DNA of 32,730 nucleotides from Carboxylicivirga fragile (lineage in GTDB: Bacteria; Bacteroidota; Bacteroidia; Bacteroidales; Marinilabiliaceae), in the NCBI GenBank assembly GCA_025499625.1, contig JAFMVD010000061.1, forward strand, positions 1-32,730, written 5' to 3'. Position 1 is the first letter of the stretch. Each line of letters begins with the position of its first letter. Made by a program: the position numbers and the translations under genes. Positions 3,169 to 21,589 of this stretch are shown one piece after another. The notes beneath the pieces are model-generated. The model had not been told where the DNA came from. It ran no database searches and saw only the letters and a list, made by a program, of their open reading frames with translations.

Positions 3169-3313
3169 TTTAGGCGTTAGCAATGGTTAATGGCATTAGT
3201 TAATGAATGCTAAATATAAGTAAAACAATTCTTTTACTTGTAGTATATATAACTAATTCTTAAGAAGAATTTGTAAATTATTTTGAAAAAACAGAATTAA
3301 CGGCAAAGGTTTG

Positions 3314-3321: not shown

Positions 3322-3348
3322 ATGGCGTCCTATAGGATGAAGATGATA

Positions 3349-3915: not shown

Positions 3916-3984
3916 TTGAGCGAAGGATTGTTTGGAGATAGACGTCTAATGAAATGAAAGACAATGAAGAAAGAGGATTTAAAT

Positions 3985-4323: not shown

Positions 4324-4822
4324 GAATTGTAAATTGTGTTGGATTATTCTAGGGCTTTTCTTTGCTGCGAATGTGGTATTGCTCTCTTTGTGGTGGATGA
4401 GTTCTCAAAAGAAGACTGATCGATCGAGGGGAAGAGGGAAAATGGAGATGAAACGTTTAAGACAGCATCTCGAAAGTAATATTGGAATTGACTCTGTGCA
4501 GTTTGATGTGTTTAATAAATTGCGTCATGTTCATTTTGAACAATTAAATCATACAAAATTAAAAATCGACAGTATTGAAAGGCTCTTGCGTTTAGAGACT
4601 TTTACCGATAATAGCGATTCTTTAAAGGTTTATGGTCTCATTGACGAGATTGCCGTTTATCAAAAAGAGGTGGAAATGCAAAATTACATCCACTATCGAA
4701 AATTAAGGTCTGTCTGCAAAAGCGAAGAGCAACGGAAGCGATTGGATAGTAACTTTAAAAATCTAATTGATAAAAAACACGGGCGACACCGTAATAGATA
4801 CCGATCTGGTCGATCTAAATAA
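4316..4822 (+). CDS. Membrane-anchored Spy/CpxP-like (heavy-metal-resistance-type) periplasmic protein
   Basis: A 168-residue protein with an N-terminal membrane anchor (about residues 7-27), then a basic linker (KKTDRSRGRGK) and an all-helical, charged periplasmic domain. The layout of that domain (RLRQHLESNIGIDSVQFDVF, then HFEQLNHTKLKIDSIERLL) resembles the metal-resistance/Spy/CpxP/ZraP group, which act as periplasmic chaperones or stress sensors. The C-terminus is Arg/His/Lys-rich (KKHGRHRNRYRSGRSK). The start overlaps the preceding gene by 8 bases; an ATG at 4307 is also possible. Assignment to the superfamily is by pattern and is moderate. As part of the sigma operon it may act in sensing or feedback. 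Confidence 0.65.
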   Translation: MNKNCKLCWIILGLFFAANVVLLSLWWMSSQKKTDRSRGRGKMEMKRLRQHLESNIGIDSVQFDVFNKLRHVHFEQLNHTKLKIDSIERLLRLETFTDNSDSLKVYGLIDEIAVYQKEVEMQNYIHYRKLRSVCKSEEQRKRLDSNFKNLIDKKHGRHRNRYRSGRSK

Positions 4823-4907
4823 GTAATATGTAATTGAAAATAAGCTAAAAAGCAAGCGTGCACCTTGTTTTAATGTGATAGTTATGTCAAATTTTATTAA
4901 AATATTT

Positions 4908-4920
4908 CATGTTTAACATG
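4908..4920. promoter_or_regulatory. Palindrome upstream of the tandem Spy-like gene
   Basis: CATGTTTAACATG is a perfect 6-bp inverted repeat around a single central base, ending 16 bases before the ATG at 4937. It could be a protein-binding site or a small leader hairpin. No standard promoter was found in this 114-base gap, so the gene may depend on the upstream operon or on an ECF-type promoter. Confidence 0.3.
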
Positions 4921-4936
4921 ATTAAAATAATGAGTT

Positions 4937-5815
4937 ATGAGAAAGAGAAATTTAATTGCAGGATTGGTTGTGCTAATGATAGCAAGTGGATTAAGTATTA
5001 ATGCTCAGCAGCAACGCATGAGACAGAATAAAAAAATGTCTTACCAAAAAACTTCTGCGCAAAGTTCGTGTTTGAGTGACTTGTCGGCTGAGCAGCAGGA
5101 ACAGATGGAAGCTTTAAGAATTAAACATCTGAAAACAAATCAATCAAATTTAAATATGTTGAACGAGTTGCAAGCTCGAAAGGTAACGCTGCAAAGTGCC
5201 GATGAAGTTGATAGGAAGGAATTGAATAAATGCATCGAGAATATTAGTGGCATTAAGGTAGATATGCAGAAGCGTCGTATTCGTCATATGCAGGAAGTGA
5301 AAATGGTATTGGATGATGCCCAACTATTAGCTTTTGAAAACAAGCATAGGATGAACAATGGTAAAGGACGTGGAAACAGAAATTTCTGTGATGGTCAGGG
5401 TTCATCATCAAAAGGATATGCGAAAGGACATGGTCGTCGTGGTAATGGCCAAGGAAGAAGCGGACATAGAGGTAATGGCCAAGGAAAAGGGTATGAAAAG
5501 GCTGGTTTTACAGATGATCAAATAACTATAATGCAAACTTCACGTTTGGAATTGATGAAGAAGGAGCAACCATTGTTGAATGAATTAAATGAGTTGAGAG
5601 CAGCTTTAAAAACACAAACTTCTGGCCGTGATATTGATTATAAGAAAGTAGATAAGCTAATTGATGAGCAAGCTGATTTGCAATTGAAAATGGCAATGCT
5701 AAAGATGGATCATCAGCTTGAAATACGTCAGCAATTAAGCGATGAACAACGATTAATGTGGGATATGCGTCGAATAAAAGGAAAAGGACATAGAAGATAT
5801 ATGTCTGCTTTGTAA
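4937..5815 (+). CDS. Secreted protein with two Spy/CpxP-like domains
   Basis: A 292-residue protein with an N-terminal signal peptide (IAGLVVLMIASGLSINAQQ). Two helical units of about 90 residues resemble each other: the first (about 49-138) runs from LSAEQQEQM to the AQLLAFENKH segment, and the second (about 189-283) from AGFTDDQITIM to SDEQRLMWDM. Both start with an L/F-[ST]-x-x-Q segment and end with a [DE]-[AE]-Q-x-L/R segment, as in Spy/CpxP-type periplasmic chaperones. They are joined by a Gly/Arg/Lys/Asn-rich linker (about 140-187) with an internal repeat. It probably works in the periplasm as part of the envelope-stress response driven by the adjacent ECF sigma factor. The domain duplication is inferred by eye. 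Confidence 0.7.
   Translation: MRKRNLIAGLVVLMIASGLSINAQQQRMRQNKKMSYQKTSAQSSCLSDLSAEQQEQMEALRIKHLKTNQSNLNMLNELQARKVTLQSADEVDRKELNKCIENISGIKVDMQKRRIRHMQEVKMVLDDAQLLAFENKHRMNNGKGRGNRNFCDGQGSSSKGYAKGHGRRGNGQGRSGHRGNGQGKGYEKAGFTDDQITIMQTSRLELMKKEQPLLNELNELRAALKTQTSGRDIDYKKVDKLIDEQADLQLKMAMLKMDHQLEIRQQLSDEQRLMWDMRRIKGKGHRRYMSAL
5441..5486 (+). repeat. Short tandem repeat in the Spy-like linker
   Basis: GGTAATGGCCAAGGAA occurs at 5441-5456 and 5471-5486, a 30-base period that keeps frame and encodes the repeated GNGQG units of the basic linker. It looks like a recent duplication within the gene. Confidence 0.75.
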
Positions 5816-6102: not shown

Positions 6103-7011
6103 TTGAAAATTGAAATTAAGGACTTGAGTCAAGTCTATAAAAATGACTTTCGCGCACTGAGTCATGTGGATTTGGAAATTAATTCCGGAATGTTTGGTTT
6201 GCTTGGTCCCAATGGAGCTGGTAAATCAACTTTAATGCGCATTCTCGTAACGCTTTTGAATCCAACTCATGGTGATGTATTTGTAAATGGTATGAAACTT
6301 TCAGATAATCGAGCTGAGGTTCGTTCATATTTGGGCTATTTACCTCAGGATTTTCGGTTCTTTTCTAAACTAAAAACATGGGAGTTTCTTGATTATGCAG
6401 CTTCCTTAGCAGGTATCCGAAATAAGAAACAACGACTAGAGCAAGTGGATGATTTGTTGGAGCAGGTTGGTTTATTTGATTTTAGAAATCGCTTTGCTAA
6501 TAAACTTTCCGGTGGTATGAAACGGCGATTAGGTATTGCTCAAGCTCTTATTGGTGATCCTAAAATAGTAGTAGTTGATGAGCCAACTACAGGATTGGAT
6601 CCGGAAGAACGCATCCGATTTAGAAATATACTTTCCAATCTGAGTCAGCGTGAGGTTATTATTGTATTGTCAACTCATATTGTTGGTGACATTTCGTCAA
6701 CGTGTAGTCAAATGGCTTTATTAAACGGAGGAGAGGTACATTTCAAAGGTTCGCCAGAGCAATTTATTAAACAAACCGACGGTCATGTTTTTAAGACAAA
6801 TGTGACCTATGAAGAAATGAAATTGATTAGTGAAGCTTACCCAATTATTACCTCCGTTCCTGAAGCAGGAGGTTACGAGGTAGAGTTTGTGGCTAATGAA
6901 CTTAACGGGTGGAAAGCCGATACGATAACTCCGTCGTTAGAGCATGCCTATGTTTATTTTATGGAGTACATCGCCAACCAAAAACAAGTTTCCAATGATA
7001 TCCTTATTTAA
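6103..7011 (+). CDS. ABC transporter ATP-binding protein
   Basis: A 302-residue cytosolic ABC ATPase that should drive an ABC-2 type permease. Visible motifs are Walker A GPNGAGKST (35-43), Q-loop LPQDF, signature LSGGMKRR (from 135), Walker B VVVDEPTTGLDP (catalytic E160) and H-loop H192. About 80 C-terminal residues follow, probably accessory. The start must be non-ATG: TTG at 6103 follows an in-frame stop at 6088-6090 with no ATG between, and the protein begins directly at the first strand (KIEIKDLSQVYK). The stop overlaps the next gene by 17 bases. It is the first gene of the seven-gene operon. Its ATPase is closely similar to the C-terminal ATPase of the RND fusion (for example LDPEERIRFRN versus LDPRERIRFRN). 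Confidence 0.93.
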   Translation: MKIEIKDLSQVYKNDFRALSHVDLEINSGMFGLLGPNGAGKSTLMRILVTLLNPTHGDVFVNGMKLSDNRAEVRSYLGYLPQDFRFFSKLKTWEFLDYAASLAGIRNKKQRLEQVDDLLEQVGLFDFRNRFANKLSGGMKRRLGIAQALIGDPKIVVVDEPTTGLDPEERIRFRNILSNLSQREVIIVLSTHIVGDISSTCSQMALLNGGEVHFKGSPEQFIKQTDGHVFKTNVTYEEMKLISEAYPIITSVPEAGGYEVEFVANELNGWKADTITPSLEHAYVYFMEYIANQKQVSNDILI

Positions 7012-10000
7012 TGTAAAAACGGTTGCTCGGTTTGAATCAAAAACTCTTCTGAGAAGTTGGTTTTTTAGAATATTCGCAGGGATTGGCTTACTTTTCCTTC
7101 TGTTTTTCAATATGTTTGGCGTTACCGATTTAGGTGATGGTGGTTGGCCTGGGCGTTTGTTGCCGTCGGGTGTACCATATATGAATATTTGGATGTTAAA
7201 TATAGCTCAGGCTATTATAGCTGTATTTCTGTCAGCCGATTTTTTAGGACGAGATAAAAAGCTTGATACCACGGAGGCGTTTTATGTGCGTAGTATGTCG
7301 AATACTGATTACGTTATTGGAAAGACCATAGGTATACTAAAGGTTTTTGTAGGTTTAAATTTAATGGTGGTATTTCTTGGTTTGTTATTTATGCTTATAG
7401 CCAATGAAGTTTCGATACCATGGCTTTCATTTCTGATTTATCCACTGTTAATGTCCTTACCAACGTTGGTTTTTATTTTGGGTTTATCATTTTTTACAAT
7501 GACACTTATTCGAAATCAGGCCATTACTTTTGTTGTGCTGCTTGGGTTTCTAGCACTGTCACTTTTTTATTTACAGAATAAATGGTACGCTTTAAGCGAT
7601 ATTCTTGGTTTTTGGACTCCATTTATGCGATCCGATTTTACTGGTTTTGGTAATGAACTTGCGCTTATATATCAGCGATTTGCATACCTTTTATTGGGAG
7701 TAGGATTTATTCTGGCTACCATTTGGCGTTTACCAAGGTTGGAGCAGGCAAAAGGCCAAAAGCCTATACTCGGATTGTTCTTGATTATGTTCTTTGTTGG
7801 TGGAGCTTCTTTGTTATTTATGAAAGCAAAGATGGATCAGGATAACTTAACCTTACGAAGTGAAATGCGAACCTTAAATACGAATCTCAAGGAATCATCA
7901 TACCTAATAGAAGCTTATGCAATAAAATTTAAACATGAGAAGGATCAAATAAGTGTAGATGCTGAACTTGGTATACATGCATTAGCAGATAACGCTAACG
8001 AACTGGTATTGGCACTTAATCCGGGTTTGAAAATTAGGCAAGCCAATGTTAATGGAACCCGTGTTTCGTATAAACGAGATAAACATTTGGCCTACTTTGA
8101 TTTAAAAGGGGTTAACGCTTCACGTTTTAATTTATCTTTAAATTATGAAGGTGAAATTATTGATGCAGCCTTATTTCCAGAGATAGCGGATGAAGTTTTA
8201 TTGGATGAAAACAGAATTGATCCACTTCTTGCCAATAAGCAAGGTAGTTTTGTTACCGACAAATATGTGCTTTTAACGCGCGAAGCAAACTGGTATCCGG
8301 TTGTAGCATCAAAATTATATTGGACATCTTATCCATTTACAACAATGGATATAGAAGTGAGCACAGCTAATGATTTGGAAGTTATATCTCAGGGGAGTAG
8401 AGATGTAAATGAGAATGTATTTCGATACATAAGCAATGAACCATTGAATGCACATAGTATTGTTATCGGAGAATTTGAACGATTAACAACTAACATTGAC
8501 AGCATAGAGTTCAATTTATATTATCATCCATCACACGACTATTTTAAGGAGCACTTTTCTGAATTGTCTGATACTGCCTCTGTTGTTATCAAAAGCGTAA
8601 AGGATGATTTTGAAAGAAAACTGGGGCTGAAATACCCATTTCAACGATTCTCGATTGTTGAGGCGCCCATTAATATGTACAGTTATTTACGTAATTGGAC
8701 GCTGGCAACAGAAAATATAATGCCTGAAATGGTGCTGTTTCCTGAAAACGGTGGCGGTGATTGGCAAAATGATTTATCACGTATTACAAGAAGAACCAAA
8801 AGACGTAAAGAAGATCAGAATGAGGCTGTTTCTGACAAAGAATTACAGACCGATGTAATAAAGAATTTTCTTGGGGATAACTTTATTCAACCACGCAGTT
8901 TCTTTTGGGGGCGTCAGCGCGAAGGTGAGCGAAGTGTTGAAAATTGGGGGCGTTATCAAATCTTTCCATCTTATTTTAGTTATTCCAATTCAATTGTTGA
9001 AGAGAATTATCCACTGCTAACGATTGCACTGGAAAATTATTACCATCAGCGATTAAGTGAAACTCGACGCCGTGGTATAGGTGGATTATCAGCAAACGAT
9101 GAGGTAATTCTTAAGCTTCGTGATAAAAGTTTGGTTGAGCTAATTGATGAAGAGGATGTTAACATGCTTGGGAACGTTTTTGCATCTAAGGGAAGTCAAT
9201 TGTTTTCGGGCTTAAAGATTAATACCAACCAGAGTAATTTCAATGTTGAACTAGATACTCTTCTGACTAGAAGTCGATTTTCTAATATTGCCTTGGATAA
9301 TTTCTCAACATCTCTTTCTGAAATCTCCAATCTTGATTTCGAAAAGGTTTACAATAATTGGTTGAACGAACAATATAAACCAGCCTTTTTATTTGGAGAA
9401 GTCAGTGTATGGGAAGTGAAAGATGGAAATAGAGTACGGTTCTTTATGAAAGTACCCGTAAGCAATAGTGGTGATGCCGATGGCATTATAGCGTTTACTG
9501 TGCGCGAAGGACAGCAACGAAGAGGCGGTAGGGGGCGTTTCCGATCTCGTAACGACATGGAAGATGATGCGAATGAACAGAGTTTTCAAATTAAAAAAGG
9601 CGAAACCGCTGAAATAGGTTTCCTCTTGGATGATGAACCAAGGGAGTTAAAGGTGAATACTTTTTTAGCTAGAAATATTCCATCGACCCAACAGCTGAGT
9701 ACTGGAGATATTATTAAGGATAAACGTAAAGTTGATTTCTACGAAGGAAAACGTTTGTCAACCAAGACGATAAAATACAAAGAACCTTACGAAATAATTG
9801 TTGATAATGAGGATGAAGGATGTGAGATAATTAACACTGGTGAAAGCAAAACCATTAAAGATTGGTGGTTGAGTCGACAAAATGAAGATGATGAAAACGA
9901 TACCTATGGCATGATTCGATTCTGGAGTCCACCTGTGAAATGGAAACCTGTTGCAGGCGAGTCGTTTTTTGGCGAATACTTGAAATCGGCCTATTACAAA

Positions 10001-10324
10001 AGAAAGGGATCGGGTACAGGAAGCATTACGTGGACTGCCGATATTACTGAAACAGGTAATTATGAAGTGTACGCCTATGTGCCAGATTTTAACTTTGGAT
10101 GGGGGCGTGGTCGCGATCGGAAAAGTGTGGATAAAGATTATGAATTTACGGTACACCACGATGATGGCGATGAAGCGATTACAGTAACCATTAATAAGGA
10201 AAATAACCAATGGGTTTATCTTGGCGATTTTTATTTCTCTGAAGGAAAAGCCAAAGTACAATTATCAGACATGACCAATGTTGAATACGTTATTGGAGAT
10301 GCTGTTAAGTGGGTTAAAAAATAG
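6995..10324 (+). CDS. ABC-2 type permease fused to degenerate M1-peptidase-like and golvesin-like domains
   Basis: A 1109-residue membrane protein. About seven transmembrane helices lie in residues 20-278 (six in the ABC-2 permease core, the last around 257-278). Then comes a large extracytoplasmic part resembling M1-family (gluzincin) domains. ATEN at 571-574 sits where M1 enzymes have GAMEN, but no HExxH zinc motif exists; the equivalent region reads VIKNFLGDNF near 621-630. The last 178 residues (932-1109, YEIIVDNEDEG to DAVKWVKK) resemble the golvesin/Xly-type beta domain. Basic low-complexity loops occur (RRTKRRKEDQ, RRGGRGRFRSR). Permease/M1 fusions are known in Bacteroidota; here the peptidase part looks inactive and may bind substrate. 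The ATG at 6995 is chosen because it starts the helix-preceding MISLFNVKTVARFE segment. Confidence 0.85.
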   Translation: MISLFNVKTVARFESKTLLRSWFFRIFAGIGLLFLLFFNMFGVTDLGDGGWPGRLLPSGVPYMNIWMLNIAQAIIAVFLSADFLGRDKKLDTTEAFYVRSMSNTDYVIGKTIGILKVFVGLNLMVVFLGLLFMLIANEVSIPWLSFLIYPLLMSLPTLVFILGLSFFTMTLIRNQAITFVVLLGFLALSLFYLQNKWYALSDILGFWTPFMRSDFTGFGNELALIYQRFAYLLLGVGFILATIWRLPRLEQAKGQKPILGLFLIMFFVGGASLLFMKAKMDQDNLTLRSEMRTLNTNLKESSYLIEAYAIKFKHEKDQISVDAELGIHALADNANELVLALNPGLKIRQANVNGTRVSYKRDKHLAYFDLKGVNASRFNLSLNYEGEIIDAALFPEIADEVLLDENRIDPLLANKQGSFVTDKYVLLTREANWYPVVASKLYWTSYPFTTMDIEVSTANDLEVISQGSRDVNENVFRYISNEPLNAHSIVIGEFERLTTNIDSIEFNLYYHPSHDYFKEHFSELSDTASVVIKSVKDDFERKLGLKYPFQRFSIVEAPINMYSYLRNWTLATENIMPEMVLFPENGGGDWQNDLSRITRRTKRRKEDQNEAVSDKELQTDVIKNFLGDNFIQPRSFFWGRQREGERSVENWGRYQIFPSYFSYSNSIVEENYPLLTIALENYYHQRLSETRRRGIGGLSANDEVILKLRDKSLVELIDEEDVNMLGNVFASKGSQLFSGLKINTNQSNFNVELDTLLTRSRFSNIALDNFSTSLSEISNLDFEKVYNNWLNEQYKPAFLFGEVSVWEVKDGNRVRFFMKVPVSNSGDADGIIAFTVREGQQRRGGRGRFRSRNDMEDDANEQSFQIKKGETAEIGFLLDDEPRELKVNTFLARNIPSTQQLSTGDIIKDKRKVDFYEGKRLSTKTIKYKEPYEIIVDNEDEGCEIINTGESKTIKDWWLSRQNEDDENDTYGMIRFWSPPVKWKPVAGESFFGEYLKSAYYKRKGSGTGSITWTADITETGNYEVYAYVPDFNFGWGRGRDRKSVDKDYEFTVHHDDGDEAITVTINKENNQWVYLGDFYFSEGKAKVQLSDMTNVEYVIGDAVKWVKK

Positions 10325-10384: not shown

Positions 10385-11881
10385 ATGCATAATTATATGA
10401 GATATTTATTACTCGGAAGTTTCTTGCTCCTCTTTTTAGCAGGGCCTTCAAATTCTTTATTTTCGCAACGCTTAATGACTCTGGAACAATCGGTAGAAGA
10501 GGCTTTAAAACAAAGTCCTGACATCGTTCGGGCGCGTTTGAATCAAGAGCGTTATCATGAGTTGTTAATTGCTCAAAAAGCCTCATTGAAATCCAGATTT
10601 AAACTGGATTTGAGCCCATTTTCATACCAAAATCAACGTTCATATCAGGATTATGCTCAGGAATGGTATAATACTCAGAAATTGCAAAGTTTTGGAAATT
10701 TCAACGTTAGTCAACCTATTATTTGGACCGATGGTACTTTAACTTTAAATAATCGTTTTGGTTGGGAGGATAATAAAAGTTCAACAACCGATAATCCTTT
10801 TACAGGTTTTAGTAATAGTTTAGATTTGAGGTTGGATCAACCTATTTTTACATACAATCGTCGTAAATTAGAATATAAGGAGATTGAGTTTAATTTCGAG
10901 AACTCTCAGTTAAACTATTCTCTCCAGGCTCTTAATGTTGAGAAGCAGATTACTCAGTACTTCTATCAGATTTATCAAAAACAGATGGAACTGATTACTT
11001 CACGAGAAGAGTGGAATAATCGCAAGAAAAGTTACGAGATTATCAAAAATAAAGTGGATGCTGGTTTAACGGCCAAGGAAGAAATGTTACAGGCTGAGTT
11101 GGATATGATGTCAAGTCAGTCGACTGTTCAGAATAACGAGACTGAATTGGAAAACATTAAAGATAATTTCAAACAAATGCTTGGTTTACCCTTTACAGAA
11201 GAGTTAATGGTAATTGCCGAGGTTTCTGTTTTACCTATTGATATTGATTTGGGCATGGCGGTTAATTTTGCCATTGCTAACCGAATGGAAATACGTCAAC
11301 GAGAAATTGATATTGAAACCGGGCAGTTTGAATTAATAAGAACCAATGCAACAAATGAGTTTAAAGGTAATGTTAGTGTTGCGGTGGGCTTATTTGGTAA
11401 CGACAAAAATTTAAACAACATATATGATGCACATAACAGGAACGATAACCAGGATGTGCGTGTAAGTTTTGAAGTGCCACTTTGGGACTGGGGAGAGAAA
11501 AAGGCAAGGATGCGTGCCGCTGAAGCTTCTTTACAAACCAGTGAGTATAATTTAGAGGATGAGAAAAAGAGTATTCGATTGGGAATCCGTCAAATTGAGC
11601 GTAACCTTCGGAATATGCTAATTCAAATTCAGATTGCGCGTAAAAATGAAGAGAATGCGCAGTTGACCTACGAGATTAATCTTGAAAAGTATCGCAATGG
11701 GGATTTAACCAGTATGGATCTTAACTTGGTTCAGAATCAGTTAACGCAAAAAAAGAATGCTTTGACTAATTCTTTAATCAACTATAAACTGGAGTTGCTT
11801 AATATGAAGCTTCAAACGCTTTACGATTTTGAAAATCAGCGCAGTATTATGCCTGATGTAAATGCTTACGAAACAAAATAA
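10385..11881 (+). CDS. TolC-family outer-membrane efflux protein
   Basis: A 498-residue protein with an N-terminal signal peptide (MRYLLLGSFLLLFLAGPSNS) and two repeats of the outer-membrane-efflux-protein fold. These have beta-strand segments that would form the barrel (FGNFNVSQPIIWTDGTLTL, DLRLDQPIFTYNRR) and long coiled-coil helices that would form the periplasmic tunnel. It begins with the typical MTLEQSVEEALKQSPDIVRA segment. Length fits TolC/OMF proteins. It should be the exit duct for the adaptor and RND pump encoded next; the adaptor gene follows after 7 bases. An ATG at 10397 also fits the signal peptide. The assignment is firm; the substrate is unknown. Confidence 0.93.
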   Translation: MHNYMRYLLLGSFLLLFLAGPSNSLFSQRLMTLEQSVEEALKQSPDIVRARLNQERYHELLIAQKASLKSRFKLDLSPFSYQNQRSYQDYAQEWYNTQKLQSFGNFNVSQPIIWTDGTLTLNNRFGWEDNKSSTTDNPFTGFSNSLDLRLDQPIFTYNRRKLEYKEIEFNFENSQLNYSLQALNVEKQITQYFYQIYQKQMELITSREEWNNRKKSYEIIKNKVDAGLTAKEEMLQAELDMMSSQSTVQNNETELENIKDNFKQMLGLPFTEELMVIAEVSVLPIDIDLGMAVNFAIANRMEIRQREIDIETGQFELIRTNATNEFKGNVSVAVGLFGNDKNLNNIYDAHNRNDNQDVRVSFEVPLWDWGEKKARMRAAEASLQTSEYNLEDEKKSIRLGIRQIERNLRNMLIQIQIARKNEENAQLTYEINLEKYRNGDLTSMDLNLVQNQLTQKKNALTNSLINYKLELLNMKLQTLYDFENQRSIMPDVNAYETK

Positions 11882-11888
11882 ACCAATT

Positions 11889-12968
11889 ATGCCTAAATAT
11901 CAATCAATGAATACGATAAAATCAATTTTAGCTGGCTTATTACTTACAATCGTAGTAGTGTCATGTAACAACGAAGCTAGTAGTTTTGAAACCGACGTTG
12001 CAGTTAATGTTTCAGTACTGGAAATTAAAAATAAACCAATAGAGCAGACTTTAATTACCACGGGTTCAATAAAACCTGCCATGGAAGTTAATCTAAAATC
12101 AGAAATGATTGGCTCATATCGCTTGTTAATAAATCCTTCTACGGGTCAGAAATATAAGATGGGTGATCGTGTATCTAAAGGGCAAGTGATTATTCAGTTG
12201 GAAGATAAAGAATACGAGAACAATACCAACCTTGAGGGAGCAGAGCTTGATTTAGAAATTTCGGAAATGGAATATAAAAAACAACAGGCTTTGTACGAAA
12301 AGGGTGGTGTAACTCTACGTGAATTGGTGAATTCGGAAAAGACAATGTTAACGGCTCAACAAACGCATGAGAACGCCCAATTGAGTTTAGATAAAATGGC
12401 TATTGAAGCGCCGTTTTCAGGTGTAATTACTGATTTGCCTTATTTCTCGCCTGGTATGCGAATTGAGTCGGGTAAAGATTTGCTTAGCATGATGGAATAC
12501 AATGTGATGGTAATGGATTTAAGTATGCCTGAAAATTTAATGGGACAGGTTAGAATGTCGCAACCAGTAAACATTATGAATTATGCTTTGCCCGATGATA
12601 CCATAAAAGGGACTATTTCAGAACTATCTCCTGCAATTGATATGGAAGCACGTACTTTCAAAGGACGTATAAATGTTGATAATCGCGAGGGCTTATTAAA
12701 GCCTGGAATGTTTGTTAAAGCTGAAATTGTTGTTGATCATCGCGATAGTGCCTTAGTGATTCCAAAGGATGTTATTCTAACTGAAGGTAATCGCAAGTTG
12801 GTTTTTGTGGCTAAGAAAGAAACTGCTGAGAAACGCTATATACGAACTGGTATCGAGAGTTTAACCGAGGTTGAGGTGCTTGGTACTGATTTAAAAGAGA
12901 ATGATCGCTTGATTATTAAAGGCTTCGAAACATTGAAGAATCGATCTAAGGTTAAAGTAGTTAAATAA
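11889..12968 (+). CDS. RND efflux periplasmic adaptor (membrane-fusion lipoprotein)
   Basis: A 359-residue adaptor with a lipoprotein signal: the hydrophobic segment ILAGLLLTIVVVSC puts the lipidated Cys near residue 26. It has the order of the HlyD/AcrA family: N-terminal beta strand, first half of the lipoyl domain (GDRVSKGQVIIQLEDKEYE), a short alpha hairpin (EYKKQQALYEKGGVTLREL), second lipoyl half (DKMAIEAPFSGVITDLP), beta-barrel and membrane-proximal domain (LKPGMFVKAEIVV). It should bridge the TolC-like duct and the RND permeases. Starts at 11862, 11889 and 11907 are in frame; 11907 begins right at the lipoprotein signal and is a good alternative. The short hairpin agrees with HAE-type rather than long-hairpin secretion adaptors. 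Confidence 0.92.
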   Translation: MPKYQSMNTIKSILAGLLLTIVVVSCNNEASSFETDVAVNVSVLEIKNKPIEQTLITTGSIKPAMEVNLKSEMIGSYRLLINPSTGQKYKMGDRVSKGQVIIQLEDKEYENNTNLEGAELDLEISEMEYKKQQALYEKGGVTLRELVNSEKTMLTAQQTHENAQLSLDKMAIEAPFSGVITDLPYFSPGMRIESGKDLLSMMEYNVMVMDLSMPENLMGQVRMSQPVNIMNYALPDDTIKGTISELSPAIDMEARTFKGRINVDNREGLLKPGMFVKAEIVVDHRDSALVIPKDVILTEGNRKLVFVAKKETAEKRYIRTGIESLTEVEVLGTDLKENDRLIIKGFETLKNRSKVKVVK

Positions 12969-12992: not shown

Positions 12993-15900
12993 ATGAGATC
13001 CATTTCACGATTCTCTGTAAATTATCCTGTAACTGTAGCCATGATTGTGTTGGGTATAGTATTGTTGGGTATTATTTCTTTATCTCGTTTGGGAACAGAT
13101 TTATTTCCAGATTTGCAAAATCCGCGTATTTATGTGGAATTGAAAGCGGGTGAGCGTTCGCCCGAAGAGATAGAAAAACGTTTTGTTGAGCAAATTGAGG
13201 CTTTATCTGTTCGTCAAAGTGGTGTGCTAAACGTATCATCGGTTAGTCGAGTTGGTACTGGAGTTGTTACTGTCGAATATGATTGGGGCAAAGATATTGA
13301 TGAGGCTTTTCTCGATTTACAAAAAGCATTAACAGCTATTTCTCAGGATTCGGATGTAGAAGAATTAAATATTTCCCGATTCGATCCTAACGCGGCGCCG
13401 GTTATAAAAGCTGCATTCAGTCATGCCGAAACGGAAGACATGAATGAGTTGCGAAAAATAGCGGAGAATTACATTCGTAATGAACTTATTCGTGTTGAAG
13501 GCATAGCCGATGTTCGTATTTCAGGCGAACTTACGGCTGAAGTTATGGTAGTGCTTGATCCGGGATTATTGGAAGTAAATGGCCTAAGCATAAATTCGGT
13601 TTTAAACACCATCAACAGTTTTAATCAAAACGTATCGGGTGGTTCCATTGAAGAGATGGGGCAGCGTTATATTATTAAAGGACTAAGTGCACTTGGGAAT
13701 CTGGACGATATTAGACAATTGGTTGTAAAAGTTCCGCAAAGTAGCTCAGTTCAAAATTCAACGAATGAAACGGAAGCGATAACAGCTCAGGCGGCCATCT
13801 TATTGCAAGATATTGCAGAGGTAAGCTTGCGCAACAGCGAGCCGGAAACCATTGTTCGATTGAATGGCAAACGATGTTTAGGTATAGCCATTTACAAGGA
13901 GACTCGTTTTAATACGGTTGCCGCTGTTGAAAAGTTAGAAGAAGCATTCGTTGCCATACAACAACGTTTACCCGGTTATGAATTAACTGTAATAAATAAC
14001 CAGGGAAGTTTTATTCAAAGTGCTATTGGCGAGGTTGAAGAAAGTGCCTTGATCGGAATTATTTTTGCTGTATTTGTATTGTTTCTTTTCCTACGTCGTT
14101 TTGGTGTAACCTTAATTGTAAGTATAGCTATTCCAATATCCATTATTGCCACTTTTAACTTGATGTATTTTAATGGTTTGACATTAAATATTATGACCTT
14201 GGGAGGTTTAGCCCTGGGAGCTGGTATGTTGGTGGATAATGCCATTGTGGTAGTGGAGAATATTTATAGGAAGGTTGAATTAGGTATACCAGTTAAACAA
14301 GCTGCAATTGAAGGAACCTCAGAGGTTGGAGGCGCTTTAACGGCATCTACCTTAACTACAATTGTTGTGTTTTTGCCAATTGTTTATTTACATGGTGCTT
14401 CGGGTGAGTTGTTTAAAGATCAGGCATGGACCGTTGCTTTTTCATTATTATCATCCTTGTTAGTTGCTTTATTGGTAATACCAGTTTTAAGTAGTTTCAT
14501 ATTTAAGAAATCAAAAACTACAGCAAAGCCAAGAGTTAAGCCAGCTGAAATAGGATATGAAAAGTATGGGAACTTCTTATCAAAGTTTCTGGATCGTAAG
14601 TATTATGTGATTATTGGAGCAATGGTTCTTGTTGCTTTAACAGGTATGTTAGTGCCACAAATGGGTAGCGAGTTTATGCCTGAGTCAGAGTCGAATGAAA
14701 TAACGATTGAAACGATCTTTCCTGCAGGAACTGCTTTATCTCGAACCGATGCTTCATTATCTCAAATGGAACAATTAGTGCTTGGTTCGTTTGAAGATAA
14801 GCTAAAATGGATTTATGCACATGCAGGACCGGAGTCTGGTGTTGAATCATCGTCATCCACAGAGCAAGGTGAAAATACGGGTTATTTAAAACTGATTTTG
14901 AATGATGGTGAGCATATCGCCTTCGCGGATTTGGTAGCGCATCTCAATAAATTATTTGATGGCATACCAGGTTTGGAATTAAGGTTCGTTCAAGATCAAT
15001 CGGCATTACAAACATTACTGGGTACAGATGAAGCACCGTTGTTAATTGAAGTGGCAGATGAGCAAATTGAAAATCTAGAGGAAAGTGCATCCATGATTAG
15101 TAATTTAATTCGGGAGGACGAGCAGATTTACAATATTAAGAGTTCGTTTGAGGACGGTGCGCCTGAGGTCAATGTTGTTATTGATCGTGTCCGTGCTGGT
15201 ATCTTTAATCTGGATGTGTCAACCATAATGGCCAATCTAAAGGATTATCTATCGGCTAAAGATGGTGGAAGAATGGAAATGAAAGGTGATTTGACCAATA
15301 TTAAGTTGGAAACACCCGATGTGCGCCTTGAGCAATTAAAAGATTTGAAAATATCAACTGGAGATAAGGAGGTCCTCCTATCAGAGGTTGCAACTATAAC
15401 GATTGGGCAAGCGCCACGAGAGCTAATCCGAAACAATCAGAAACGAGTAGCTCAGATATCAGCCATGGTAACGGATGAGCAACCCTTTGATCATTTAATA
15501 GCTGACCTTACGCAGGATATAAACCAATTGGATTTACCCGCTTCAACCAATGTTTCTATTTTAGGTGAAGAGCAAAAACGTAAGGATGCCTTTGGTAGTT
15601 TGCAGTTTGCTTTAATTCTATCCATTATTTTGGTGTATATGGTTATGGCTTCTCAATTTGAATCTTTGGTGCATCCATTTACCATTTTACTCACTATTCC
15701 CTTGGCTGGAGTTGGTGCAGTTTGGGCATTCTTTATACTCGGTAATACCTTTAATATTATGGCTTATATCGGTATTGTGATGCTGGGAGGAATCGCGGTG
15801 AATGATTCCATCATTTTGGTGGATGCCATCAACCAATATAAAAAGGCAGGTTTGGATTTGAAGGAGGCGATTATTGCTGCGGCTCAACAGCGTATTCGAC

Positions 15901-16112
15901 CGATAATGATGACTAGTTTAACCACTATTTTAGCTTTATTACCATTAACTTTTGGTTTTGGTGATAGTGCTGCTTTACGCTCGCCAATGGCCATAGCCGT
16001 AATTGGTGGTTTGCTCACATCAACCATGCTTACATTGCTGGTTATTCCTTGTGTGTATTACGTTTTCGATAATTTGTTTTATCCAGCGAAACGCACAAAT
16101 TCTAATAGCTAG
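12993..16112 (+). CDS. RND-type efflux permease (AcrB/MdtB-like)
   Basis: A 1039-residue inner-membrane proton-driven exporter with the standard RND layout: helix 1 at the N-terminus, a large porter domain, helices 2-6, a second porter domain and helices 8-12. In helix 4, LVDNAIVVVENIYR gives D415-N416 where AcrB has Asp-Asp. In helix 10, GGIAVNDSIILVDA has N937-D938 where AcrB has the relay Lys940. These changes occur in many AcrB-like family members, so the pump may still be active. The heavy-metal (CusA) signature is absent. It starts 24 bases after the adaptor gene and is followed by a second, fused RND gene. It probably forms a trimer with the adaptor and TolC-like protein. Confidence 0.95.
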   Translation: MRSISRFSVNYPVTVAMIVLGIVLLGIISLSRLGTDLFPDLQNPRIYVELKAGERSPEEIEKRFVEQIEALSVRQSGVLNVSSVSRVGTGVVTVEYDWGKDIDEAFLDLQKALTAISQDSDVEELNISRFDPNAAPVIKAAFSHAETEDMNELRKIAENYIRNELIRVEGIADVRISGELTAEVMVVLDPGLLEVNGLSINSVLNTINSFNQNVSGGSIEEMGQRYIIKGLSALGNLDDIRQLVVKVPQSSSVQNSTNETEAITAQAAILLQDIAEVSLRNSEPETIVRLNGKRCLGIAIYKETRFNTVAAVEKLEEAFVAIQQRLPGYELTVINNQGSFIQSAIGEVEESALIGIIFAVFVLFLFLRRFGVTLIVSIAIPISIIATFNLMYFNGLTLNIMTLGGLALGAGMLVDNAIVVVENIYRKVELGIPVKQAAIEGTSEVGGALTASTLTTIVVFLPIVYLHGASGELFKDQAWTVAFSLLSSLLVALLVIPVLSSFIFKKSKTTAKPRVKPAEIGYEKYGNFLSKFLDRKYYVIIGAMVLVALTGMLVPQMGSEFMPESESNEITIETIFPAGTALSRTDASLSQMEQLVLGSFEDKLKWIYAHAGPESGVESSSSTEQGENTGYLKLILNDGEHIAFADLVAHLNKLFDGIPGLELRFVQDQSALQTLLGTDEAPLLIEVADEQIENLEESASMISNLIREDEQIYNIKSSFEDGAPEVNVVIDRVRAGIFNLDVSTIMANLKDYLSAKDGGRMEMKGDLTNIKLETPDVRLEQLKDLKISTGDKEVLLSEVATITIGQAPRELIRNNQKRVAQISAMVTDEQPFDHLIADLTQDINQLDLPASTNVSILGEEQKRKDAFGSLQFALILSIILVYMVMASQFESLVHPFTILLTIPLAGVGAVWAFFILGNTFNIMAYIGIVMLGGIAVNDSIILVDAINQYKKAGLDLKEAIIAAAQQRIRPIMMTSLTTILALLPLTFGFGDSAALRSPMAIAVIGGLLTSTMLTLLVIPCVYYVFDNLFYPAKRTNSNS

Positions 16113-16139: not shown

Positions 16140-19100
16140 ATGAAAGAAATAATAAATAGGAAGGTTTTGGTTAGTATGTTTTTCCTGGCATTTACAATGC
16201 TGGGGGTGATTTCATACAAGCAATTATCCTTTGAGTTGGTGCCTAACACTGAATATCCATTGCTTTTTGTGCGAGTAAGTGCATCATCGCAATTGGATCC
16301 TATTCATATGGAACAGGAAGGTGCCATCCCGATTGAAAGTGTAATTAGTACCTTGGAAGGCATCGAAAAAATTGAGACACGTGTTAATCCAGGTAGCGCC
16401 ATGATATTTGTGTACCTCAGTCGTGATGCTGATATTAAGTACAGTTACTTGAAGTTGGTTGAGAAGATTGAGAGTTCGTCGGGTGTATTACCCGAAACAA
16501 TGATGGCTCAGGTTTTCAAGGCTGATATTGACCAATTGAATAATGAATTCATGACGATTCAGGTCAGGGGCGAAGGAGGTGCTGATCGCATCCGAAATAT
16601 AGTTGAGCAAGACATTAAAAGTACGCTTGAAAGCATTGATGGGGTTTCGGCTGTTGAAGTGTCTGGTGGACGCCAAAAGTCCGTTGAAATTATATTTTAC
16701 CAAGATGTACTGGATAGCTATGGCTTAACGAGTGGTCAGATACGCCAAATGATTAATGGTGGTCAGAATGAGAAGATTTTTGCAGGGGAGGTGATACAAG
16801 GGCAGATGCGCTATTACGTTACTGCTGAAGCGGATTACAAACACATCGATGAAATTAAGAATATTGTAGTTAAGGCCGACGGACCTGTTCTTCTTAAAGA
16901 TATTTCGGAAATAGAATTTGGGGTAAAAGAGGATGATTCTTATAGTCGTGTGAATGGCATGGAAGCAGTTTCTGTTTCTATCTCTAAAGATGCTCAGGTA
17001 AACCTAATCGATCTGTCGAAGAGTACCTTAGCCCAATTAGATGATATTAACGCGGCATACGAAGTCAAAGGGATTGAATTGGTGGTGGAGTCAAATACGG
17101 CTGAAACCATGGAGAATAACCTTGATGGTATCATTGAATTAGCCTTTGTTGGAGGAATTTTGGCATTGTTTATTCTGTGGATTTTCTTAAATAATATTCC
17201 CTTGGTTGGAATGGTAATGTTATCCATTCCCTTATCAGTTTATGGCGCATTTAACTTTTTCTATGCGGCCGACATTACTATAAATATACTAACCTTAGTC
17301 GGTTTGGCGCTTGCCATTGGTATGCTGCTCGATAACAGTGTGGTGGTGATGGAGAATATTTATCGGGTGGCATCAAAGGGGAAGTTAAGTAGCGAGGAAA
17401 GTGTTGTTAAAGGAACAAAGGAAGTCTGGCGATCGGTAGCGGCGGCAACTTTTACAACCGTTTCAGTATTTCTTCCATTTGTCTTTTCTGAGAATATTCT
17501 CTTTCGCGAGGTAGCCCGACATATCAGTGTTTCCATCGTATCTACCTTGTTGGTTTCCTTATTGGTGGCACTACTTTTAATACCGATGTTGACGCATGTT
17601 TTTCTATCGGGATTAATGAAGAACCGAATTGAAGCACTGGAAAAATTATCCTTGCATAACCGATTGGTTCAATATTATATTCTGTTACTAAAGGCAACAC
17701 TTCGTAAACCGGCAGCTACCATTATATCTGTGTTATTGTTGTTTTTCGTTGTGCTAATAATCAGTATTGGCGTAAGTATCAGTACAGCACAAGAGGCTGA
17801 AACTACAGAGTTTGTAGTAAGTGTTGATATGGCTTCTGGTTCAATGCTTTCGAATACAGATCTTGTGGTGAGAGAAATAGAAAAGCGTTTGGATAATCTT
17901 GAAGAGAAAGAGGACGTAATAAGTCAAGTTTTTGAAGATAGGGCAACTGTTACAGTTAAGCTATTGGACGATTACAAAGATCTTGCTGACAGGAGTATTC
18001 CTGAAATTCGGCAGGATATAGAAGAGCGGATTGACAATGTAGAAGGTGGTGAAATAAGTGTAGCCCAAGGAGGAACAAGTTCGATGGGTGGAGGCGGAGG
18101 CTTTGGCTCTAACCCAGGTATGGGCATGTTAATGTTTATGGGATTGGGTGAGCAGGAAGAAAAAGTTGTGATCAATGGAGAAGATTACGACCAAATGCTT
18201 GCAGTGGCCAACGATGTGGAATATTATCTCGAAAATGAAATAGATAATATGCGTCGTGTAAGAATATCATCGGCCAACAGACGACCCGAAGTGCATATTG
18301 ATATGGATGCCTACCTCATGGGAATGTATGACGTATCGCCTAATAATGTGGTGAATGAATTATTTACCTTTCGATCAGAAGTAGCTTCTGGTGGTCAGTT
18401 AAAGGTTGACAATGAAACCTACGATATCATCATGAAAACCATAGATGAGCCGGTACTAGAAGAGGTGTCGGCTAAGACAATGGAAGATTTGCAGAAACTT
18501 AATGTTAAGAGTAATGCTCAAAACATTATTCCATTGAAGGATTTTTCAACTATAAATTATTCCTCAGGTCGATCAGAGATTCAACGCGTCAATCAGCAAA
18601 AAGAAATTGAAGTGACCTACCAGTTTTCTGAGGAAGTTAATAGCTCGAAGACCTTATTGGAGGACGCTCGTAAGCAAGTTGATGAGTTAATTGCCAATAT
18701 TCCAAAATCGTCATCAGTTTCTCTCAAGGTAATTCATGAGGAAGATATGTTTGCCGAGTTTAAATTTTTAGGCTTGGTTGGTTTATGGCTTATTTTTATG
18801 ATACTAGCTTCGGTATTCGAATCGTTCAGCGCGCCAGTTGTAATGCTATTTTCGGTGCCCTTGGCAGCTATTGGTTCATTGTTGGCTTTGGTATTCACAG
18901 GTAATTCATTGATGAACCTTAATAGTTTCATTGGTTTCCTCATATTACTGGGTGTTGTTGTTAATAACGGAATTCTACTCATCGATTATTCCCGACAATT
19001 AAGGCGCGATGGTTATGGACATGCCCGATCATTGATGCAAGCCGGTATTTCGCGTATTCGCCCAATAAGTATTACTGCAATTACAACAATTATAGCCATG

Positions 19101-20852
19101 CTGCCTCTAGCAATGGGTAAATCAGAATATGTTGGAATACTGGGAGCTCCTTTTGCAATTACAGTGGTTGGAGGTTTGAGTTTTAGTACGCTTTTGACCT
19201 TAGTATTTATGCCAACTTTCGCCTTTGGACTTGAGAAAGCTTTGACCTGGATTCGTTCTTTGGCATGGGTTTTAAAAGTTGTCATGTATTTAAGTTGGAC
19301 AGTGGGTGCATTGCTTGTTTATTTCTTTGCAGATGTGTCCTTTGCCTGGCAGCTATTATACTATGTTCTTATAATTAGTGGAGTGCCATCCATACTATAT
19401 TTCGTTCTATCATCGCTTCGAATGGCCAATGAGCAATTGATTGAACAAGGTGATGATGTTTCTATTACCATTCGAAACTTGGTGAAGGTATATGATCGTG
19501 ATGGTCGGTTTATGCGCGAATGGAAAGCGCGTGAGGCAAAATACAAGGAGCGATCAAAACAGGAGTCAAAATCATTACGTGATATTCTAAAGAATCTTAT
19601 TTGGCAGGTACCTTTAATCGGATACATCTGTTATTTTACTTGGTGGTATGTCGAATCTGGTTTTTGGGGCTTGATTTTTACTGTCTTTAATTACTTTTTG
19701 TTTATGTCGGTGTATAATTCTATTGTGAGTTATTGGCGTAACAAAAGTACTACAGAATTAAAATGGGATAAAAAAATAAAGGTAGCCGTAAAATGGCTTT
19801 ATCCTTTATTTGCTGTCATCGCATATCACCTTAGATGGGATTCGATAGCTATGCTGGTTATCATTGCTACATTCTGGTATGCTATTTTGGCTTTAGTAGT
19901 GGCAGGTAATAAACTGAAGCGCGATCGTGTCAACATCGAACGTGTAACGGGTCGAATGGCTGGATTGCGAAGAACATTCTATCGTATGGTGCGGGCTATA
20001 CCTTTTATTGGTAAGGAGAAGGTACCATTTAAAGCGGTTAAAGGCGTGTCCATGGAGTTCAAAACAGGCATGATCGGATTGCTTGGGCCTAATGGTGCGG
20101 GTAAGACTACGCTTATGCGAATTATCTGCGGTATTCTCGATCAAAGTTATGGTAAGGTATATATAAATGGATATGATACTGCTGAAAAACGCGAAGAGTT
20201 GCAGGGCTTGATCGGTTATTTACCTCAGGAGTTTGGAACTTATGAGAACATGACAGCATATGAGTTTTTGGATTATCAAGCCATGGTGCGTGGGGTTACC
20301 AAAGATGAGGTACGTTATGAACGTTTAGAGTATGTGCTTAAATCGGTTCACATGTGGGAGCGCAAGGATGATAAGATTGGCGCATTCTCAGGAGGAATGA
20401 AACAACGTATTGGTATTGCCATGATATTATTGCATTTGCCTAAGATACTAGTGGTAGATGAACCAACTGCTGGTTTAGATCCTCGCGAACGTATTCGTTT
20501 CCGAAACCTACTGGTTGAGTTGAGTCGTGAACGTATCGTACTATTTTCAACGCATATTATTGAAGATATAGCAAGTTCGTGTAATCAGGTTGCTGTTATG
20601 AATAAAGGTGATTTGAGATATTGGGGTGTACCTAGTGAAATGGTGCAAATTGCAACTGATAAGGTGTGGCAGTTTGATGTGCCTGCCGAAGATTTTGATA
20701 GGGTTAATAAACAGTTTGTGATAGTACATCATATGCGAAACGGCGACAACATAAGAGTGCGTTGTTTATCAGAGCAGCAACCAATGGATGGTGCCGAAAA
20801 GGTAAATGCTGTGCTTGAAGACGCTTATATCTGGTTACTGAAGAACAAATAA
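16140..20852 (+). CDS. RND permease fused to an ABC ATPase with a membrane insertion in the ATPase
   Basis: A 1570-residue fusion. Residues 1 to about 1035 are a complete RND permease: LLDNSVVVMENIYR in helix 4 (D398-N399) and LLGVVVNNGILLID in helix 10 (N942-N943, no relay Lys). A Gly/Met-rich loop (about 645-671) lies in the second porter domain. About two extra helices follow (1040-1100). Then VSITIRNLVKVYD (1107-1119) looks like the first strand of an ABC ATPase, but the rest resumes only at PFKAVKGVSMEF (from 1296), after about 175 residues holding a charged helix and about four membrane helices. The ATPase is complete: Walker A GPNGAGKTT (1316-1324), LPQEF, signature FSGGMKQR (1416-1423), Walker B VVDEPTAGLDP (catalytic E1441) and H1472. 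The frame is open throughout, so this is one protein, not two genes. Confidence 0.92.
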   Translation: MKEIINRKVLVSMFFLAFTMLGVISYKQLSFELVPNTEYPLLFVRVSASSQLDPIHMEQEGAIPIESVISTLEGIEKIETRVNPGSAMIFVYLSRDADIKYSYLKLVEKIESSSGVLPETMMAQVFKADIDQLNNEFMTIQVRGEGGADRIRNIVEQDIKSTLESIDGVSAVEVSGGRQKSVEIIFYQDVLDSYGLTSGQIRQMINGGQNEKIFAGEVIQGQMRYYVTAEADYKHIDEIKNIVVKADGPVLLKDISEIEFGVKEDDSYSRVNGMEAVSVSISKDAQVNLIDLSKSTLAQLDDINAAYEVKGIELVVESNTAETMENNLDGIIELAFVGGILALFILWIFLNNIPLVGMVMLSIPLSVYGAFNFFYAADITINILTLVGLALAIGMLLDNSVVVMENIYRVASKGKLSSEESVVKGTKEVWRSVAAATFTTVSVFLPFVFSENILFREVARHISVSIVSTLLVSLLVALLLIPMLTHVFLSGLMKNRIEALEKLSLHNRLVQYYILLLKATLRKPAATIISVLLLFFVVLIISIGVSISTAQEAETTEFVVSVDMASGSMLSNTDLVVREIEKRLDNLEEKEDVISQVFEDRATVTVKLLDDYKDLADRSIPEIRQDIEERIDNVEGGEISVAQGGTSSMGGGGGFGSNPGMGMLMFMGLGEQEEKVVINGEDYDQMLAVANDVEYYLENEIDNMRRVRISSANRRPEVHIDMDAYLMGMYDVSPNNVVNELFTFRSEVASGGQLKVDNETYDIIMKTIDEPVLEEVSAKTMEDLQKLNVKSNAQNIIPLKDFSTINYSSGRSEIQRVNQQKEIEVTYQFSEEVNSSKTLLEDARKQVDELIANIPKSSSVSLKVIHEEDMFAEFKFLGLVGLWLIFMILASVFESFSAPVVMLFSVPLAAIGSLLALVFTGNSLMNLNSFIGFLILLGVVVNNGILLIDYSRQLRRDGYGHARSLMQAGISRIRPISITAITTIIAMLPLAMGKSEYVGILGAPFAITVVGGLSFSTLLTLVFMPTFAFGLEKALTWIRSLAWVLKVVMYLSWTVGALLVYFFADVSFAWQLLYYVLIISGVPSILYFVLSSLRMANEQLIEQGDDVSITIRNLVKVYDRDGRFMREWKAREAKYKERSKQESKSLRDILKNLIWQVPLIGYICYFTWWYVESGFWGLIFTVFNYFLFMSVYNSIVSYWRNKSTTELKWDKKIKVAVKWLYPLFAVIAYHLRWDSIAMLVIIATFWYAILALVVAGNKLKRDRVNIERVTGRMAGLRRTFYRMVRAIPFIGKEKVPFKAVKGVSMEFKTGMIGLLGPNGAGKTTLMRIICGILDQSYGKVYINGYDTAEKREELQGLIGYLPQEFGTYENMTAYEFLDYQAMVRGVTKDEVRYERLEYVLKSVHMWERKDDKIGAFSGGMKQRIGIAMILLHLPKILVVDEPTAGLDPRERIRFRNLLVELSRERIVLFSTHIIEDIASSCNQVAVMNKGDLRYWGVPSEMVQIATDKVWQFDVPAEDFDRVNKQFVIVHHMRNGDNIRVRCLSEQQPMDGAEKVNAVLEDAYIWLLKNK

Positions 20853-20863: not shown

Positions 20864-21589
20864 ATGACGAAAAATATTTCATATAAAAGCATTTCTAACG
20901 CCACTTTTCTGAAATTCATTAAGTACAACTTAAAGGTGGTGTTTGGTAATAAGTTTATCTATTTCTTAGGTGCTTCATTAATTTTTTATTTGCTAATAAC
21001 CTCCATTAGTCTTTTTGGAGCTGATACAGTAAGTGTACAAGGGGTATATTATCAATTGATGTTTCCAGCTTTCTTGTTGGTATTTTTTCCTACTACATAT
21101 GGTATTCAAAACGATGAAGATGCTCGGATACTTGAAATCTTATTTGGTATTCCCAACTACCGTTATAAAATATGGTTAGTCCGATTGGTAATGGCCTTTT
21201 TTATGGTGTTTTGGTTTGTGTTTGTAATGGCAAACCTGAGTAGCGTCATATTAATCAATGTACCAGTTTGGGAAATAACCTTTCGCTTAATGATACCGGT
21301 TGTTCTATTTGGTATGTTAGGCTTTTTCTTTAGTACAGTAATAAAGAATGGTAACGGTACAGCAGTTGTAGTTGTTGTAATAGGATTAGTAGTTTGGATT
21401 TTGGTTGGGTTTTTGGAATACAGTTCCTGGAATGTATTTCTTAATCCTTTTGATTTACCTTCTAATATGAGTGAAGTCGTTTGGGCTAATGTTGTGGCTA
21501 AACACATTCGAACATGGGTGATTGTATCTGGTATTGCTGGTTTATGGGGACTTTTAAACCTCCAGAATAGAGAGAAGTTTATTAAATAA
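20864..21589 (+). CDS. ABC-2 type permease, short
   Basis: A 241-residue integral membrane protein with six predicted helices: FIYFLGASLIFYLLITSI, LMFPAFLLVFFPTTYGI, LVRLVMAFFMVFWFVFVMANL, LMIPVVLFGMLGFFFSTVI, VVVVIGLVVWILVGFLEY and TWVIVSGIAGLWGLLNL. The IQNDEDARILEILFGIPNYRYKIWLVR loop is typical of ABC-2 permeases, where it touches the ATPase. It starts 11 bases after the RND-ABC fusion, so it is the likely partner of that protein's C-terminal ATPase, or the half-partner of the larger permease encoded at the operon's start. It has no extracytoplasmic domain. It is the last gene before a strong terminator. Confidence 0.85.
   Translation: MTKNISYKSISNATFLKFIKYNLKVVFGNKFIYFLGASLIFYLLITSISLFGADTVSVQGVYYQLMFPAFLLVFFPTTYGIQNDEDARILEILFGIPNYRYKIWLVRLVMAFFMVFWFVFVMANLSSVILINVPVWEITFRLMIPVVLFGMLGFFFSTVIKNGNGTAVVVVVIGLVVWILVGFLEYSSWNVFLNPFDLPSNMSEVVWANVVAKHIRTWVIVSGIAGLWGLLNLQNREKFIK

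Follow-up and report, generated by a model that had tools for sequence, protein, structure and literature searches.

A conserved polypeptide that joins an RND permease to a split ABC ATPase, encoded in a seven-gene block of Carboxylicivirga fragile

The window analyzed here, a stretch of 32,730 nucleotides from Carboxylicivirga fragile (contig JAFMVD010000061.1, forward strand), encodes a polypeptide, designated RND-ABC, in which a complete RND permease and an intact ABC ATPase core are joined in one chain. Sequence comparison and structure prediction together reveal the fusion, an ATPase fold that is split between its first two strands by predicted membrane helices, ATPase motifs that are intact, and a seven-gene block to which the fusion gene belongs. 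The sequence anatomy of the protein is firm, and the fusion together with its constant partner genes suggests a single pump that draws on two energy systems. Pumps of the RND and ABC types are conventionally assigned to different energy classes. A single conserved chain containing both is a handle on whether ATP powers or gates an RND porter, on the joining of a threefold with a twofold machine, and on the way in which an ABC ATPase accommodates a membrane domain inserted after its first strand. The gene and its parts are as follows.

16140..20852, + strand: RND-ABC fusion gene, a single ATG-started frame of 1570 aa without internal stop
16149..19220, + strand: complete RND permease part, residues 4-1027 (PF00873, ACR_tran, E 2.6e-150, profile positions 5-1016 of 1021)
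19266..19418, + strand: pair of additional membrane helices following RND TM12, residues 1043-1093 (AlphaFold, hydropathy)
19464..19493, + strand: first ATPase strand with A-loop Tyr1118, residues 1109-1118 (alignment, PSSM, DSSP)
19494..20027, + strand: membrane insertion with four long helices, residues 1119-1296 (alignment, AlphaFold)
20028..20849, + strand: ATPase core from the second strand to the C terminus, residues 1297-1570 (PF00005, Foldseek)

The RND part has the full-length two-repeat fold, scoring 502.6 bits against PF00873 (cut-off 28), and it matched MdtB (9lyq) with an E value of 4.4e-62 by phmmer. In the Pfam search, ABC_tran (PF00005) matched residues 1301-1444 over profile positions 2-137 of 137 with an E value of 6.4e-28. 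The uninterrupted 1570-codon frame with RND and ABC parts described in an earlier note on this DNA was confirmed by frame analysis, by Pfam and by homologues. The homologue set comprised 105 frames, 101 of them distinct, and was aligned in 101 rows with the window included. Both ends of the alignment were spanned by 77 distinct frames of 1561-1612 aa, counting that of the window and two (L075 and L094) that reach the end of their DNA stretch without a stop; in a single-contig genome (G002) the frame is 1580 aa. Since these 77 full frames derive from many assemblies, an accident of sequencing or assembly is excluded, and the assembly error that the earlier note had named as a refutation failed as one. 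No support for a sequencing, assembly or fusion accident was found, irregular rows being otherwise explained: the gene of L052 looks split at the joint because of an N gap, and that of L104 is split within the RND part, which may reflect a sequencing error or a real break. The possibility that homologues are always two separate genes was likewise contradicted, as the RND and ATPase parts lie in one frame in every homologue in which both sides and the joint are present.

The motifs of the ATPase were conserved across the alignment. Walker A Lys1322, Q-loop Gln1363, signature Ser1417/Gly1418, Walker B Asp1440/Glu1441, D-loop Asp1447 and H-loop His1472 were identical in 100 of the 101 distinct rows, the sole row devoid of the motifs (L039) deriving from a contig that ends before the ATPase. 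Thus, the complete Walker A, signature, Walker B and H-loop motifs noted earlier in the window are retained in all rows but the truncated one. The A-loop Tyr1118 was present in 99 rows, with gaps in the remaining two. A PSSM was built from the 11-residue first strand of 17 orthologues of ABC1, a stand-alone ATPase encoded in the same block, and used to search 79 RND-ABC proteins of more than 1500 aa. The site at residue 1108, or its equivalent, ranked first in 74 proteins and second in one; the remaining four were missed by the locating pattern, and their aligned rows carry strands such as IEIQNLTKVY.

Residues 1028-1570 were modeled with AlphaFold, yielding a mean pLDDT of 73.6 with 19 rows and of 85.7 (pTM 0.70) with 84 rows. 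In both models DSSP assigned a strand to residues 1109-1118 (model residues 82-91), and all other listed strands lie at or beyond residue 1297, within the ATPase; in the 84-row model the second strand covers residues 1297-1307 (model residues 270-280). Since a DSSP strand requires a hydrogen-bonded partner, the strand at 1109-1118 must join the ATPase sheet in the models, with only ATPase strands as possible partners, which is the packing that the earlier note had looked for in a structure model. The place of this predicted strand in the ATPase fold is read from the DSSP labels; the conserved Tyr, the PSSM and the DSSP assignment rule out the alternative that residues 1107-1119 are a strand-like decoy. 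Foldseek lists obtained with the ATPase domain were led by ATPase structures (4yer, LptB, NosF and ABCA), and the best NCBIfam match of both the fused ATPase and ABC1 was DrrA, below the model cut-off. Among the matches listed, the fusion orthologues were followed by ABC1 and ABC1-like ATPases at ∼205-235 bits, with other ATPases at 156 bits or less.

The 84-row AlphaFold model places four long helices between the two strands, at approximately residues 1146-1170, 1174-1202, 1208-1233 and 1236-1262, together with two shorter flanking helices. Two additional helices, residues 1043-1063 and 1068-1093, precede the first strand and were absent from the earlier note. The distance from the A-loop Tyr to 'PFKA' ranged from 166 to 209 residues with a median of 180 in the 99 measurable rows of 101, in none of which are strands 1 and 2 directly consecutive. 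These results agree with the gap of about 175 residues and about four membrane helices originally proposed, and the insertion point is common to all 99 of these homologues. The alignment showed that the insertion is poorly conserved in sequence except at its ends. Searches of the insertion against Pfam produced only chance-level matches (the best, 0.0027, for one of 34 rows), as did a profile search of the PDB (best 0.088). Assignment of the insertion to a known membrane domain was rejected on the basis of these searches and of Foldseek lists led by ATPase chains; the longer ABCA alignments in Foldseek had an rmsd of ∼14 to 24. No insertion-free form was found among the aligned rows, which were obtained with queries that themselves contained the insertion.

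The fusion gene is the sixth of seven genes that form the block in the window, a setting absent from the earlier note. The other members are listed below.

6103..7011, + strand: ABC1, stand-alone ABC ATPase of 302 aa with a TTG start (PF00005, E 2.1e-31)
6944..10324, + strand: ABC2big, ABC-2-type permease with a periplasmic part and Golvesin_C, 1126 aa (Golvesin_C, E 2.8e-18)
10385..11881, + strand: TolC-type outer membrane factor, 498 aa (PF02321, E 2e-36)
11862..12968, + strand: periplasmic adaptor (RND_mfp), 368 aa (TIGR01730, 190 bits, cut-off 94.9)
12993..16112, + strand: RND1, ordinary RND permease, 1039 aa (PF00873, E 1.4e-211)
20864..21589, + strand: ABC2small, ABC-2-like permease of 241 aa adjoining the fusion gene (orthologue matches)

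The adaptor and TolC genes lie on the same strand and in the same gene row as both RND genes, constituting a tripartite set. Homologues of ABC2big begin near position 6995. The ABC2_membrane_2 profile was above cut-off in two of four ABC2big orthologues (L038 and L039) and below it in the window copy (E 0.035). A faint Peptidase_M1 match was obtained for the window copy (E 0.0096), unlisted for the four orthologues scanned, and no HExxH motif was found in the window copy. At another locus of the same genome (L149:2441-6928, minus strand), an ABC1-like ATPase is encoded with a 1194-aa M1-peptidase/ABC-2 permease, a pair that is likely a relative of ABC1/ABC2big. ABC2small of the window had no Pfam match, including at E ≤ 1, and its profile found no PDB sequence at E ≤ 1; ABC2_membrane_3 was detected at E ≤ 1 in 7 of 41 orthologues, the best with an E value of 6.2e-8. 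An hhalign comparison of ABC2small with the N terminus of ABC2big was weak (probability 0.7%, E 0.078), and the proposal that the two are clear sister permeases was rejected on that basis.

The order ABC1-ABC2big-OMF-MFP-RND1-RNDABC-ABC2small was fitted by 104 loci, a figure that includes duplicates (some obtained by two routes) and leaves genes on the other strand uncounted. Genes were labeled by Blast after discarding matches of ≤100 bits or <24.5% identity, from which ABC2small was exempt, and the 104 do not include L052 and L047, neither of which yielded a fusion frame that passed the filter. All seven genes were present in 14 loci, ABC2big to ABC2small in 46, and RND-ABC with ABC2small only in 23, the other 21 showing different partial stretches, genes that are split or a single additional gene. 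For rows that start after ABC1, the retrieved DNA ends no more than 529 bases before the first visible gene, indicating that the genes not seen lie outside the retrieved DNA and are not lacking from the locus. An ABC1 orthologue of 58-64% identity was found on the same contig and strand in all eight named records tested, about 14-15 kb upstream of the fused ATPase domain. In 82 of 100 loci ABC2small either overlaps RND-ABC or starts within 50 bases of its 3' end, and the median gap is 8. One locus without an RND1 frame contains N runs (L083), two have RND1 in two frames (L086 and L123), and one has an extra RND gene after the block (L113). In two Bacteroides loci (L111 and L113) a second adaptor and RND pair, with 24-27% identity to those of the window, follows immediately on the downstream side.

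The block is directly preceded by a group of genes that could be a local regulator.

3322..5815, + strand: ECF sigma factor, two small ORFs and a Metal_resist/Spy-like protein

Genes related to the ECF and Spy-like genes were located upstream in five relatives (L163, L164, L171, L150 and L153) and in part in three (L166, L154 and L035). They were not found upstream in L155, L156, L158-L162, L165 or L167-L170, where diverged versions could be missed; L169 and L170 belong to the same genus, L155, L156 and L158-L162 are distant records, and L157 was too short to judge. The genes look local since they were not found in several relatives, including members of the same genus, and were rejected as part of the block core. 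The region is flanked by histidine kinases on the minus strand, one at 907-3183 with PAS and a weak ABC_sub_bind match below cut-off and the other at 22214-23575 with MASE11, and an outer membrane phospholipase A (PF02253, E 1e-96) is encoded at 28332-29240. The same genome also encodes another type of RND fusion (L129:265-4608, minus strand), a protein of 1447 aa in which ACR_tran is followed by an OEP (TolC-type) domain.

RND-ABC occurs in mostly Bacteroidota-related bacteria, beside the same partner genes. A search of 40 related genomes with residues 1097-1570 showed that frames of ∼1570-1585 aa recur throughout the genus and elsewhere in the order, in further genera and families, together with a few shorter frames of 882 (G008), 421 (G013) and 1252 aa in small contigs. 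Within the family, 34 of 71 genomes matched at E ≤ 1e-110, including all 14 of the genus. The samples of the class and phylum, for which three candidates per genome were scored, yielded 5 of 395 genomes at E ≤ 1e-110 and 6 of 395 at E ≤ 1e-90, respectively, figures that may be low; the genome of the window is counted at all three levels. A scan of named genomes returned at least 566 relatives at E ≤ 1e-3, a loose threshold that plain ABC ATPases can also pass, and the best 80 of these loci match ∼462-543 of the 543 query residues. Titles among the best 80 include Carboxylicivirga, Prolixibacter, Draconibacterium, Marinilabilia, Marinifilum, Bacteroides faecis, Parabacteroides, Cyclobacteriaceae and Saprospiraceae, together with metagenome-assembled genomes titled Melioribacteraceae, KSB1, Calditrichota, Krumholzibacteriia, Deferribacteres and Actinomycetota, labels that can be wrong. 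Frames spanning both ends were obtained from the Melioribacteraceae, KSB1 and Deferribacteres records (L072, L084, L107 and L061) and partial frames from the Calditrichota, Krumholzibacteriia and Actinomycetota records (L088, L112 and L068). Cultured strains among the best 80 include Prolixibacter bellariivorans, Marinilabilia salmonicolor, Draconibacterium mangrovi, Bacteroides faecis and two Parabacteroides sp., so that the system is open to testing. In the genus of the B. faecis record (G434) the fusion is present in 5 of 80 genomes, that record included. One article describes a dicumarol-induced 'ABC-type' pump operon of seven tags in B. uniformis, BACUNI_01926-01932 (PMC12694919), a candidate member of the block family that, with the fusion in so few genomes of that genus, is no more than a lead.

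For the function of the window block we favor, at about an even chance, a seven-gene hybrid exporter, namely a tripartite RND pump that has a mixed RND trimer and incorporates an ATP-powered ABC-2 exporter. ABC1 and the ATPase domain of RND-ABC would form the nucleotide-binding pair of an ABC-2 exporter resembling DrrA, NosF and ABCA, and ABC2big and ABC2small would be its membrane halves; given the neighboring genes for another ATPase and for two ABC-2-like permeases, a built-in ABC-2 exporter is the simplest use of the fused ATPase. Six helices, two preceding its first strand and four following it, would hold the fused ATPase in the membrane, and the RND part would tie it to a trimer of RND1 and RND-ABC. 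The two tandem RND genes, for both of which the best PDB sequence match was MdtB, suggest a mixed trimer like that of MdtBC, in which the presence of a single RND-ABC chain, or of two, would make the threefold symmetry of RND compatible with the twofold symmetry of ABC; RND1 and RND-ABC could also form separate trimers. ATP would move an amphiphilic or lipid-like substrate from the inner leaflet to the outer leaflet or the periplasm, where the periplasmic and Golvesin parts of ABC2big would handle it before the RND trimer, adaptor and TolC channel take it out of the cell. In this proposal we infer the subunit partnership, the stoichiometry, the direction of transport and the substrate, the last of which is a guess from family resemblance.

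A less probable reading, which we regard as doubtful, is that the fused ATPase acts through the six extra helices to drive or gate rotation of the RND trimer, replacing the proton or acting beside it, with ABC1, ABC2big and ABC2small feeding the RND part. It draws on the single frame shared with RND in homologues holding both sides and the joint, on the fully conserved ATPase sites, on helices that link RND TM12 directly to the ATPase, and on residues of the proton relay. The latter in the window RND-ABC are TM4 Asp, TM4 Asn, TM10 Asn, TM11 Arg and TM11 Thr. The first TM4 Asp was found in 83 of 83 non-gap rows, Asn at the second TM4 position in 80 of 83 (two Thr and one Ser) and the TM10 Asn in 97 of 97, whereas MdtB and MdtF hold Asp and Lys at the latter two positions. 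Compared with the AcrB proton-relay pattern of TM4 Asp-Asp, TM10 Lys, and TM11 Arg and Thr, RND-ABC departs from this HAE-1 set at those two positions. However, RND1 shows the identical pattern, as do 3 of the 11 other RND loci that were compared in the genome (L133, L134 and L135; two further RND frames, each in two pieces, L141-L144, were excluded from the 11), and the pattern therefore does not mark a fusion-specific loss of proton use. Loss of the relay was for this reason rejected as a sign of ATP drive, and the proton pathway of RND-ABC may be intact, given that the protein retains the first Asp of TM4 together with Arg and Thr of TM11. Also against an ATP-driven porter is the full ABC-2 partner set adjoining it. 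An arrangement in which one ABC ATPase on a linker of six helices sets the pace of the RND trimer or drives it, so that a proton pump of threefold symmetry and an ATP pump of twofold symmetry work in one cycle, is similarly unlikely.

It is also possible, with the same low probability, that the block encodes two transporters of one pathway, the ATPase domains of RND-ABC forming a homodimer (two chains in a 2:1 trimer) with ABC2small alone, and ABC1 with ABC2big constituting a separate ABC transporter. The adjacency of ABC2small to RND-ABC and of ABC1 to ABC2big is consistent with this division, as is the free-standing pair at L149, but the two pairs were never seen apart within this block. Considerably less probable is a role of the ATPase solely as a sensor of ATP or a switch of assembly that recruits or gates the RND pump, with no ABC-type transport through it. 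Fusion alone is no proof of transport and ABC2small is weakly recognized; however, all checked hydrolysis residues are kept and ABC2small travels with the RND-ABC gene. An error of sequencing, assembly or gene fusion as the origin of RND-ABC is extremely improbable in view of the 77 distinct frames of 1561-1612 aa and of matches in each of the 14 genomes of the genus, in two of which (G008 and G013) the frames are short.

A hybrid of the RND and ABC transporter superfamilies in one chain is apparently undescribed: a full-text literature search, mostly outside subscription journals, returned no RND-ABC fusion in the titles or abstract starts among the matches listed, and public annotation probably names such proteins plain RND permeases. 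The ATPases of NosDFY, ABCA and GldA match the fused ATPase domain by Foldseek and HMM, and none of them is known to have its first two strands separated by a membrane insertion. The pair at L149 is 41% and 22% identical to ABC1 and ABC2big, respectively; its permease has a clear Peptidase_M1 match (E 3.5e-17), in contrast to ABC2big with its weak match and Golvesin_C at the end. The block has an RND permease, an RND_mfp adaptor and a TolC channel in common with HAE-1 pumps of the MdtABC and AcrAB type, and mdtBC is a tandem of two RND genes as are RND1 and RND-ABC. Unlike those pumps, its RND-ABC chain adds six helices and an ABC ATPase, the block adds an ABC ATPase and two ABC-2-like permeases, and the TM10 Lys is replaced by Asn. 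MacAB-TolC resembles the block in ATP-driven export through an adaptor and TolC, and differs in operating without an RND permease and in the membrane fold of MacB. In the DrrABC/MmpL7 system, which lacks TolC, the components are separate proteins and the RND protein belongs to the MmpL type. Mycobacterial export of PDIM requires both DrrABC and the RND-family protein MmpL7, for which a scaffold role with DrrABC has been suggested without direct evidence (PMC11539658). As described there, a DrrA-like ATPase and ABC-2 permeases share an export route with an RND-family protein, which provides a precedent for the block (PMC11539658).
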